A stretch of DNA of 64,000 nt, taken from NCBI RefSeq assembly GCF_905221025.1, contig NZ_CAJNBL010000041.1, forward strand, positions 1-64,000, written 5' to 3'. Origin of the DNA: Candidatus Nitrotoga fabula. Lineage in GTDB: Bacteria > Pseudomonadota > Gammaproteobacteria > Burkholderiales > Gallionellaceae. Shown one piece after another: positions 58,371 to 60,785 of this stretch; the stretch's first letter is position 1, and each line of letters starts with the position of its first letter. The notes beneath the pieces were generated by a model that saw only the letters and a program-made list of their open reading frames with translations, ran no database searches and had not been told where the DNA came from. The position numbers and the translations under genes are program-made.

Positions 58371-58797
58371 TTAAGGCAGGGTTTCTGGTAAAAGTGGATG
58401 CAGGTTGGATCAGTATGGTTAAATTTAACCATGAAAATAAAATTTTTTCTGGCAAGGAATCCTGTTGCACTGGATCTTGGGAAAAAAGTTGCCGTTTCGT
58501 CGTTCCATCAGGTTTCAGGGGATTGTAAGGGGCTGAGTAGTATGCAGTCCCTTGTAATCAATCGGTTTACACCGGCAAACGATCCGCCTCATTGCCCTGT
58601 CGTCATTATGCTGAAATATTTTGTGAATATCATGAACATGAAGCTTAGAGGCCTTTTGATTGTATGGCAATTCCTTGTTTGTTGCGGCCATTGCTTCTGG
58701 TGGGAATCAACCGGCCTAAAACAGACATAGTTTTCTCTATGGAACTTGTGAGAAAGGTGATTGCCGAATAGAAAAACTGTTTTAACAGGAGGTTAAG
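58371..58797. other. Divergent spacer between cysG and the small membrane ORF
   Basis: About 430 bases. Overlapping plus-strand frames across 58298-58730 have no family features and no ribosome-binding sites. The promoters of cysG (leftward) and of the small ORF and guanidine exporter (rightward) should lie here; I cannot fix them. Confidence 0.4.
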
Positions 58798-58923
58798 ATG
58801 AATATTGGAGGAATGACTTTAAATTTAACCAATGCAACTGTTTCTGTGCTTGTGATCGTAGCCGTTGTTGTATACACCTGGTTTACCCAAGACAGGGATA
58901 CCATTGATGACAGGGATCATTGA
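58798..58923 (+). CDS. 41-residue single-helix membrane protein upstream of the guanidine riboswitch
   Basis: A short frame with an excellent ribosome-binding site (ACAGGAGG, six bases before the ATG). It begins MNIGGMTLNLTNATVS, has one hydrophobic helix (VSVLVIVAVVVYTWF, about 16-30) and ends with a charged tail QDRDTIDDRDH. The layout suggests an inner-membrane peptide with a cytoplasmic acidic tail. It is not a family I know. It lies 40 bp before the guanidine-II riboswitch of the exporter gene, so it would be transcribed with it but outside its control. Confidence 0.6.
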   Translation: MNIGGMTLNLTNATVSVLVIVAVVVYTWFTQDRDTIDDRDH

Positions 58924-58934
58924 GGCATGCCTCA
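58921..58934. repeat. Perfect palindrome at the end of the small ORF
   Basis: TGAGGCATGCCTCA is a 14-bp perfect palindrome whose first three bases are the stop codon of the small ORF. It could form a short hairpin in RNA or be a dimeric operator; no T-run follows, so it is not a standard terminator. Confidence 0.5.
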
Positions 58935-58963
58935 TGAATGCCCATTTGATAAACTGCCTGTCA

Positions 58964-59021
58964 GGAGGACGACCTCCGGCATCTAGCAGTTAAGATGAAT
59001 CCGCATCCCGGGACGGCCCGG
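58964..59021 (+). ncRNA. Guanidine-II (mini-ykkC) riboswitch
   Basis: Two small hairpins share the hallmark ACGR loop. P1 (58964-58977) is GGAGG-ACGA-CCTCC and P2 (59008-59021) is CCGGG-ACGG-CCCGG, both with perfect 5-bp stems and a 30-base linker. This is the guanidine-II class, where guanidinium lets the two loops dock. The exporter gene's Shine-Dalgarno GGAGG (59038-59042) lies 16 bases after P2 and is identical to the 5' arm of P1. So without guanidine the 3' arm of P1 (CCTCC) can pair with and hide the Shine-Dalgarno; with guanidine it is held in P1. Loop class and position are seen; the switching model is inference. Confidence 0.9.
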
Positions 59022-59046
59022 CCTACAATTTTCCTATGGAGGGCTT

Positions 59047-59367
59047 ATGGCTTGGGTTTGTTTGTATATCGCCGGGGTGCTTGAGGTTGTTTGGGCCTAT
59101 TCAATGAAACTGTCGGCAGGATTCACCCGGTTCCTGCCTTCCACCGTTACTGTTGTAACAATGATGGCCAGTTTTGCCCTGTTGTCGATCTCGATGCGGA
59201 CGTTGCCGCTCGGTACAGCGTATACCATTTGGACGGGAATTGGCGCTCTTGGAGCATTTGCTTCTGGAATCCTTTTCCTTGGGGAACCAGTGAACGGACT
59301 GCGTATCCTGGCTGCCGCGTTGATTGTTAGTGGTATTGTGTTGATGAAATTGTCTTCAACGTACTAA
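59047..59367 (+). CDS. gdx: SMR-family guanidinium exporter (Gdx/SugE)
   Basis: A 106-residue, four-helix small multidrug resistance protein that works as an antiparallel dimer. GVLEVVWAYSMK carries E13, the proton/substrate-binding residue, and TAYTIWTGIGALGAF-type helix 3 sequence with W is that of the SugE/Gdx branch rather than the EmrE drug-pump branch. Gdx proteins swap guanidinium for protons. The guanidine-II riboswitch directly upstream fixes the substrate far better than the sequence alone. Ribosome-binding site GGAGGG is four to nine bases before the ATG. Confidence 0.93.
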   Translation: MAWVCLYIAGVLEVVWAYSMKLSAGFTRFLPSTVTVVTMMASFALLSISMRTLPLGTAYTIWTGIGALGAFASGILFLGEPVNGLRILAAALIVSGIVLMKLSSTY

Positions 59368-59527
59368 ATTGTTAGGGATCAATTTTCTTAAAACACGGGA
59401 AACGGAATACAGTCCGAGGGTGTTGGTGTGGGATTAGACTAAAAAAGCCACAATCGAATTAGATGCTCATGTTTTTTATTGTGTATCATATAAAGTTCGA
59501 CGGATATCAATACTGAATGCGGTGTAT

Positions 59528-60289
59528 ATGTATACGGAACATCCGGAGTTTGAGCCACCTGAAAACGAAGAAGTCAAGGTATGGCGATATATGGATTTTA
59601 CAAAATTCGTATCACTTATTGATACTCAGCGCCTATACTTTGCTAGAGCTGATAAATTCGTCGATCCATTTGAAGGATCCTTGCCTAGAAAGAATGCGCA
59701 TGCACGATTTATGCCATTGGCATCACCTGATATGTCGCTAGGTGAGATCAATGCGCTTCTTGATTTGAAAAATCAGTTGAGGGACATAACGCGTCACTAT
59801 AAGAAATTTGTGGCCATTAACTGTTGGCATGCAAATGGACACGAATCTGCGGCAATGTGGAAACTATATTTAAAAAGTAACGAGGGGATAGCCATTCAAT
59901 CCACATATAAAAGATTACGCGATTCCATTATCGATGACAGACAAGTTTATCTTGGCAAAGTCAAGTATATCGATTATGAAAACGATGTAATAAGAAGCGA
60001 CAATATGCTTGCTCCATATATGCACAAACGCAAAAGCTTTGAGCACGAACGCGAAATCAGAGCGGTAGTGAGAATTCCTTGGACGACAACAGATATCAAG
60101 ATTACAGAACAAGAGCCTGTAGATCATGGAATTCAAATCAGGATTAATATCGAATCGTTAATTGAGAAAATTTATATTGCCCCGGGCACGCCAAAATGGT
60201 TTATTGATTTAGTTAGCGCTGTAATTAAACGTTATAGCTGCACATTTAAAGTAGTTCAATCAAAACTCGATGAGCAGCCTGTTTTTTAA
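59528..60289 (+). CDS. DUF2971-family protein
   Basis: About 253 residues, AT-rich compared with its surroundings. The pattern WRYMDFTKFVSLIDTQRLYFARADKFVDPFEGS near the N-terminus, CWHANGHESAAMWKLY in the middle and HEREIRAVVR near residue 175 fits the DUF2971 family, whose function is unknown; members are scattered and often in mobile or defence-rich DNA. GTG (59522) and ATG (59528) are alternative starts. It stands alone, flanked by non-coding DNA and an integrase-like fragment, beside the 3' end of a tRNA-Leu gene. Composition and place suggest horizontal transfer. Confidence 0.75.
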   Translation: MYTEHPEFEPPENEEVKVWRYMDFTKFVSLIDTQRLYFARADKFVDPFEGSLPRKNAHARFMPLASPDMSLGEINALLDLKNQLRDITRHYKKFVAINCWHANGHESAAMWKLYLKSNEGIAIQSTYKRLRDSIIDDRQVYLGKVKYIDYENDVIRSDNMLAPYMHKRKSFEHEREIRAVVRIPWTTTDIKITEQEPVDHGIQIRINIESLIEKIYIAPGTPKWFIDLVSAVIKRYSCTFKVVQSKLDEQPVF

Positions 60290-60425
60290 AAATTCCGCAA
60301 TTAATCTGCCAATACATATTTTATCAATCCGGTAACGCCGCAACATTCCTATATCCGAGGCGTTGCCCATACTTGAGCCATACGTTTGGACAAATCAATA
60401 TCCGTCCGTCTTTAATGAAAAGATT

Positions 60426-60599
60426 TCACCAACCCGCATGGTCAATAGTTTGCTGTGCTACCCATGCGTTTGTTTCTGCTTTGGTGCGGAAGGTTGGAGA
60501 CAGGAAATGGCCGTCAATGCATATGCAGGCACGGTATGTCTGGCCTCGATCTTTATAGGCGACATGTATTCGGCCACTTTTGGGGAAAAGCGCACCATA
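60426..60599 (-). pseudogene. Integrase-arm-like fragment without a start codon
   Basis: On the minus strand 57 codons stay open between a TAA upstream and a TGA at 60426-60428, with no ATG, GTG or TTG to start it. The peptide reads VAYKDRGQTYRACICIDG and then HFLSPTFRTKAETNAWVAQQ. This resembles the small arm-site DNA-binding domain (AP2-like) at the N-terminus of phage and island tyrosine integrases, where a three-strand sheet ends in TFxTKxEAxxW. The catalytic domain is absent. It lies about 100 bp from the 3' end of tRNA-Leu, where an integrase would act. The assignment is by pattern only. Confidence 0.4.
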
Positions 60600-60700
60600 T
60601 TAAAAGCAAAGGAATGCTACGGTTTGTCTTGATGAAACGATGCTAAGTGCATTATTTCATTAATTTTGAATTAATTTGCTACAGGGTGCTATACTGTCTT

Positions 60701-60785
60701 TGGTGCCCAGAAGAGGACTCGAACCTCCACACCTTGCGGCACACGGACCTGAACCGTGCGCGTCTACCAATTCCGCCATCTGGGC
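60701..60785 (-). tRNA. tRNA-Leu (anticodon CAG)
   Basis: Read on the minus strand it is an 85-nt class II tRNA with encoded CCA (60701-60703). The acceptor GCCCAGA pairs with TCTGGGC, the anticodon stem-loop is CACGGTTCAGGTCCGTG (anticodon CAG), there is a long variable arm, and the T arm contains GGTTCGAGTCC. Its 3' end points at the AT-rich islet with the DUF2971 gene. Confidence 0.95.

Follow-up and report, generated by a model that had tools for sequence, protein, structure and literature searches.

A guanidine-II riboswitch leader before a Gdx-type exporter gene in Candidatus Nitrotoga fabula and a candidate translational switch based on its second hairpin

The guanidine-II (mini-ykkC) riboswitches have a linker of 7-40 nt between their hairpins P1 and P2 (PMC7544219), and the expression platform of the class has been described differently from species to species. 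In Gloeobacter, a stem-loop over P2 and the ribosome-binding site is possibly exclusive with the aptamer (Huang et al., PMC5486947). For Pseudomonas aeruginosa, a P0 helix formed by flanking sequences has been proposed, and mutations of C7, C8, C32 and C34 lock the switch ON (PMC9561414). For Escherichia coli, it is the linker that has been proposed to act as the anti-Shine-Dalgarno strand (PMC9300104). A natural 20-bp deletion in E. coli, which removes P2 and the bases before the Shine-Dalgarno sequence (SD), makes gdx constitutive (PMC13064478); this is what would be expected if P2 and the bases following it help to hide the SD. When we folded the E. coli leader individually with ViennaRNA, as it is not part of our automatic locus set, its SD was placed on the P2 3' arm with a probability of 0.56-0.67.

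We compared these systems with a locus in Candidatus Nitrotoga fabula that lies in the window, i.e. the whole stretch of 64,000 nt analysed here (contig NZ_CAJNBL010000041.1). Like the E. coli gdx/sugE leader (RF01068), the leader of this locus displays an ACGA loop in P1 and an ACGG loop in P2, followed by an SD and gdx (Table 1). The two differ in that the E. coli leader scores 50.4 bits and has a 13-nt linker (PMC9300104), whereas the window leader scores 27.4 bits and has a linker of 30 nt. In the 14 leaders from Janthinobacterium, whose proteins are up to 76% identical to that of the window, P1 (GGAGGACGGCCTCC) and the P2 core (CGGGACGGCCCG) are nearly the same as in the window, but their 18-nt linker bears a CCCATCATGGG motif that the window leader lacks. 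Many bacteria show the same arrangement of leader and related gdx gene; the window locus adds a member to a known riboswitch class, before a known type of exporter, and the element is in itself ordinary.

Table 1. Features of the gdx locus, in coordinates of the window
Feature	Position	Strand	Basis and remarks
AT-rich 2.3-kb stretch, cysG to tRNA-Leu	58371..60703	.	Holds the gdx cassette and ORF 59522-60289; absent at the same place in genus peers
Possible P1 extension	58952..58991	+	AACTGC 58952-58957 with GCAGTT 58986-58991; TGTC 58959-58962 with GGCA 58978-58981; ViennaRNA
P1 hairpin GGAGG-ACGA-CCTCC; loop ACGA predicted, by analogy, to bind guanidine	58964..58977 (58964-58968 / 58969-58972 / 58973-58977)	+	Direct sequence, RF01068 match, own covariance model
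Linker between P1 and P2	58978..59007	+	30 nt, GGCATCTAGCAGTTAAGATGAATCCGCATC
P2 hairpin CCGGG-ACGG-CCCGG	59008..59021 (arms 59008-59012, 59017-59021)	+	Direct sequence, RF01068 match
End of the P2 loop, 3' arm of P2 and the two bases after it, GGCCCGGCC	59015..59023	+	Putative OFF-state partner of 59049-59058; ViennaRNA
TTTTCC, putative local anti-SD for 59038-59043	59029..59034	+	ViennaRNA pair probabilities 0.67-0.95
SD GGAGGG	59038..59043	+	Direct sequence; own 16S rRNA 3' end contains GGATCACCTCCTT
gdx start codon ATG	59047	+	Direct sequence
gdx (sugE-type), putative guanidinium exporter, SMR family, 106 aa	59047..59367	+	NCBIfam SugE, PF00893, PDB 6wk5/8vxu, site residues

The leader has the two ACGR loops of RF01068, each closed by G-C on a stem of five pairs, a linker within the range of the class as well as within that of its relatives (12-40 nt), and a distance of 25 nt between the end of P2 and the gdx ATG. 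At its curated cut-offs Rfam reports only three tRNAs in the window. Below the cut-off, the Guanidine-II model matches 58961-59021 at 27.4 bits, under the gathering score of 32, and this match ranks first in the 2.3-Mb genome (E=0.0016; the runner-up has E=1.66). The gathering cut-off is a search threshold rather than a biological feature, and the shortfall tells little because clear relatives, namely L015 (Janthinobacterium), L031, L056 and L065 of our locus set, miss it too; the low score is visibly due to the linker, whose 30 nt include an insertion of 13 bases compared with the model. A covariance model that we built from 24 relatives, with the window sequence left out, recovers the leader at 31.7 bits (E=7e-5 for the window and 0.0025 for the genome), and stem covariation among the relatives reaches a score of 0.434 versus 0.156 in shuffles. 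The bare GGACGRCC..GGACGRCC pattern is not rare when taken alone, as its backward-read control occurs six times in the genome; it is the stems and loops, together with the downstream gene, that make the match secure. Thus, the guanidine-II riboswitch recognized in the initial annotation held up in the covariance-model search suggested there, and the sequence makes the assignment of the locus to this class and to a Gdx-type gene nearly certain. By analogy with the class, the leader is predicted to bind guanidinium through loop-loop kissing. P1 might also be extended by the pairings given in Table 1, which would leave a free linker of 16 nt (58992-59007); the shuffle test for this modelled extension is only suggestive (P=0.023). 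A promoter and terminator scan returned nothing above chance, and since it gave no transcription start, several 5' ends were used in the folds described below.

Certain relatives depart from the canonical P1. The P1 loop reads CCACGT or CCACGA in seven leaders, mostly from sphingomonads, AACGA or AACGG in nine (Afipia, Stenotrophomonas, Acinetobacter) and ACGC in one; variants of the P2 loop would be missed because the searches selected P2 as ACGR. In one genus peer (L100), a single ACGA hairpin resembling P2 precedes gdx, P1 having seemingly been lost, and this leader may be a natural single-hairpin variant. Eight leaders from the same family and order, but from outside the genus, precede, instead of gdx, a biotin-carboxylase-like gene (MFDKVLIANRGAIACRII...), which is probably a guanidine carboxylase.

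For the protein, Pfam PF00893 (96.3 bits) places it in the SMR family, and NCBIfam NF008512, the SugE equivalog, is by far its best model at 113.9 bits; as this misses the curated cut-off of 126, we file the gene as Gdx-type rather than as a SugE equivalog. Its top relatives in the PDB are the sequence of 6wk5 (Gdx-Clo) and the near-identical 8vxu form, with a gapless alignment over 104 residues. It shares with Gdx-Clo the substrate-site residues E13, W16, S42, Y59 and W62, of which W16 is conserved in Gdx and is Gly or Ala in the Qac pumps (PMC7695847). Gdx-Clo comes from a different phylum, and guanidine transport by the window protein is predicted from its sequence: by inference, it is a guanidinium exporter, predicted to operate as a guanidinium/proton antiporter, and the protein itself supports this assignment better than the leader does. 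The initial annotation had cast it as a guanidinium exporter rather than a drug pump; its site residues and structural relatives bear out the first part, but the opposition is drawn too sharply, since Gdx proteins also transport hydrophobic guanidinyl compounds (PMC7695847) and can increase tolerance to some quaternary ammonium compounds (PMC12186494), so that the two roles are not exclusive.

We consider it probable that the leader is a translational ON switch of the Gdx-type exporter, that its OFF state is built on P2, and that the cassette was gained horizontally. In the unbound window ensemble computed with ViennaRNA, which ignores kissing loops as well as protein and ribosome effects, P2 is mostly lost and its 3' arm is found on 59049-59058: the P2 3' arm pairs downstream with a probability of 0.96 and the SD with the flank with 0.78, as against 0.00 for the P1 3' arm with the SD. 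Folding of nascent chains revealed that P1 and P2 coexist with P=0.96 up to about 59043, 0.61-0.72 at 59047-59050 and 0.31 at 59053, falling to 0.07 at 59056 and 0.02 at 59058, i.e. as 59053-59058 emerge. Past 59058 the course is not monotonic (0.07 at 59060, 0.26-0.30 at 59064-59070 and about 0 from 59080), and the predicted fold shifts with the choice of the 3' end.

These folds suggest a mechanism in which the decision point would be reached when about codons 2-4 leave the polymerase. If guanidine is absent, P2 would be invaded at this point: 59015-59023 would pair in the region of the start codon (59049-59058) and TTTTCC would settle on the SD, so that initiation would be blocked. If guanidine is present, the P1 and P2 loops would kiss and lock P2, which would prevent the OFF pairing and leave only a weak local SD hairpin of about -2 kcal/mol. 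P1 would serve as the kissing partner and not as the anti-SD strand. In this best current model, the P2 3' arm together with the flank is the more likely anti-SD candidate than P1. With P1 and P2 locked, the unpaired probability of the SD rises only 2.6-9 fold, and that of the SD with the AUG 4-47 fold, varying with the 3' end; hence, the direction of the switch fits, while its size is not explained because the locked model still leaves the SD mostly paired.

The comparison across the family is consistent with a role for P2 beyond the window. When segments were swapped among 50 non-redundant loci in 40 permutations (the minus-strand loci L096, L100 and L003 being outside this set), pairing of the P2 3' arm with downstream sequence was 0.418 in the native leaders versus 0.28 +/- 0.03-0.04 in the chimeras, and pairing of the flank with the SD 0.392 versus 0.25-0.28. 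The native values were reached in 0 of 40 permutations, and this holds for swaps of the flank, of the SD region and of the two together. Likewise, complementarity measured as helix length is 5.23 for P2 and flank versus 4.62 when permuted (0/500). Folds of the segment from the P2 3' arm to codon 4 have a mean energy of -9.4 versus -8.2 kcal/mol for shuffled sequences; in the minimum-energy fold of this segment at least two bases of the P2 3' arm are paired downstream in 41 of 52 loci, a purely descriptive count. In L056, L057, L065, L078 and L080, a long hairpin runs from the P2 3' arm across the SD with differing base pairs, for instance CGGCUCUU/AGGAGAGCCG in L056, GGCAGCCUU/AAGGAGGCUGUC in L057, GGCGCU/AGCGCC in L065 and CCGGCCCUUU/AGGAGGGCCGG in L078. 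It is conceivable, though we would put it slightly below an even chance, that in many gdx-linked guanidine-II riboswitches P2 is both sensor and switch, a hairpin of its 3' arm and the next bases covering the SD and the first codons, with P1 only a kissing partner and the likeness of P1 to the SD a by-product. The platform does vary across the family, as the SD of the genus peer L098 uses the linker (0.82). The P2 3' arm as part of an anti-SD hairpin nonetheless offers a concrete and testable alternative for a class whose reported platforms differ between species.

Among the competing explanations, the one that survives best, unlikely as it is, holds that the riboswitch is degenerate or non-functional, having been carried along with the transferred gene, and that the local SD hairpin alone sets expression. 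The score under the Rfam cut-off, a modelled ON state that still hides the SD and a linker unlike those of the closest relatives would all agree with decay; against this, the window leader has kept its two loops intact along with the full ten core pairs, the cut-off is likewise missed by Janthinobacterium and by several further clear relatives, and our own model scores the leader at 31.7 bits. Slightly less likely still is an anti-SD supplied by the linker or by the upstream flank (P0). There is precedent for it, as it is documented for P. aeruginosa (PMC9561414) and proposed for E. coli (PMC9300104), and L098 shows a linker-based pairing within the genus itself; however, the linker of the window leader, GGCATCTAGCAGTTAAGATGAATCCGCATC, lacks complementarity to the SD, and the ensemble gives 0.00 for both linker and upstream sequence with the SD, on which ground we rejected a linker anti-SD in the window.

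A further reading starts from the sequence of P1. As pointed out in the initial annotation, the P1 5' arm (58964-58968) and the SD (59038-59042) are both GGAGG; this coincidence is real, but it is not special. The P1 arm is GGAGG in 29 of 70 gdx-type leaders, and 58 of the 70 have GAGG as its inner four bases. Across 52 loci a GGAGG in P1 is independent of a GGAGG in the SD (7 with both, 9 with P1 only, 14 with SD only and 22 with neither; Fisher P=0.49). The outermost pair of P1 may be GC, AU, CG or UA, and because it varies with compensation it is the stem that is kept and not the letters GGAGG. In three genus peers (L099, L101 and L102) the P1 arms are CAGGG/CCCTG, so that these leaders could not use an anti-SD from P1. 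An SD-like P1 arm is, by way of correction, a common trait of the guanidine-II family that carries no sign of competition.

The competition proposed in the initial annotation, by which CCTCC of the P1 3' arm would pair with GGAGG of the SD when unbound and with its own GGAGG when guanidine is bound, has perfect 5-bp complementarity to commend it, as well as the C residues directly 3' of P1 that form part of the P. aeruginosa anti-SD (PMC9561414), yet we rejected it as very improbable on energies and family comparison alike: in the window its predicted probability is about 0, and compared with the free ensemble it would cost 8.6-17.3 kcal/mol (ViennaRNA); P1 is a local GC-rich hairpin and the first to form in transcription; the native pairing over 50 loci (0.030) lies below all 40 chimeras with flank, SD or both swapped (0.06-0.08); helix-length complementarity of the P1 3' arm is 3.87 versus 3.98 when permuted (462/500); the outer pairs of P1 vary with compensation; and a GGAGG in P1 does not follow a GGAGG in the SD. 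Swapping the P1 arms only yields 0.020 in the chimeras versus 0.030 in the native leaders.

The export gene appears to have come into this bacterium from outside. In 11 genus peers cysG and tRNA-Leu are separated by about 0.35-0.7 kb that hold no gdx, whereas the gap in the window is 2.3 kb; because this insertion beside tRNA-Leu is missing in the genus peers, gdx was probably acquired horizontally, and horizontal gain of the cassette is the likeliest reading. RNase R of the genus peers is 80-86% identical in near-full-length matches, while their gdx is only 44-48% identical to that of the window, from which a fully supported long branch separates it; the Janthinobacterium gdx is 76% identical to the window protein. 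The seven gdx loci of the genus also have guanidine-II-type leaders, but they occupy another genomic place and their P1 arms are not GGAGG. The gdx tree, with its 106 columns, cannot name a donor. The island was searched for att-like copies of the end of tRNA-Leu, of which none of at least 10 nt was found, and family searches on the other long ORF of the insertion found no integrase. The window thus provides a probable further example of the acquisition of a gdx cassette next to a tRNA gene.

Further open reading frames and a repeat lie in and around the cassette. An ATG-started frame of 29 codons in the linker (58995-59084) runs, in another reading frame, over the start of gdx and is probably due to chance. 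Upstream of the leader, a 41-codon ORF (58798-58923) with a strong AGGAGG Shine-Dalgarno sequence and without a match in Pfam has one hydrophobic stretch (MNIGGMTLNLTNATVSVLVIVAVVVYTWFTQDRDTIDDRDH). An exact 12-base repeat, GTTAAGATGAAT, is found at the start of this ORF (58792-58803) and again in the riboswitch linker (58989-59000). Downstream of gdx, 59522-60289 codes for a protein of 255 aa with a match to PDC-S31, a candidate defence family of PADLOC (E=1.8e-22), and a weak one to DUF2971; by its sequence, this gene next to the tRNA may serve in phage defence.
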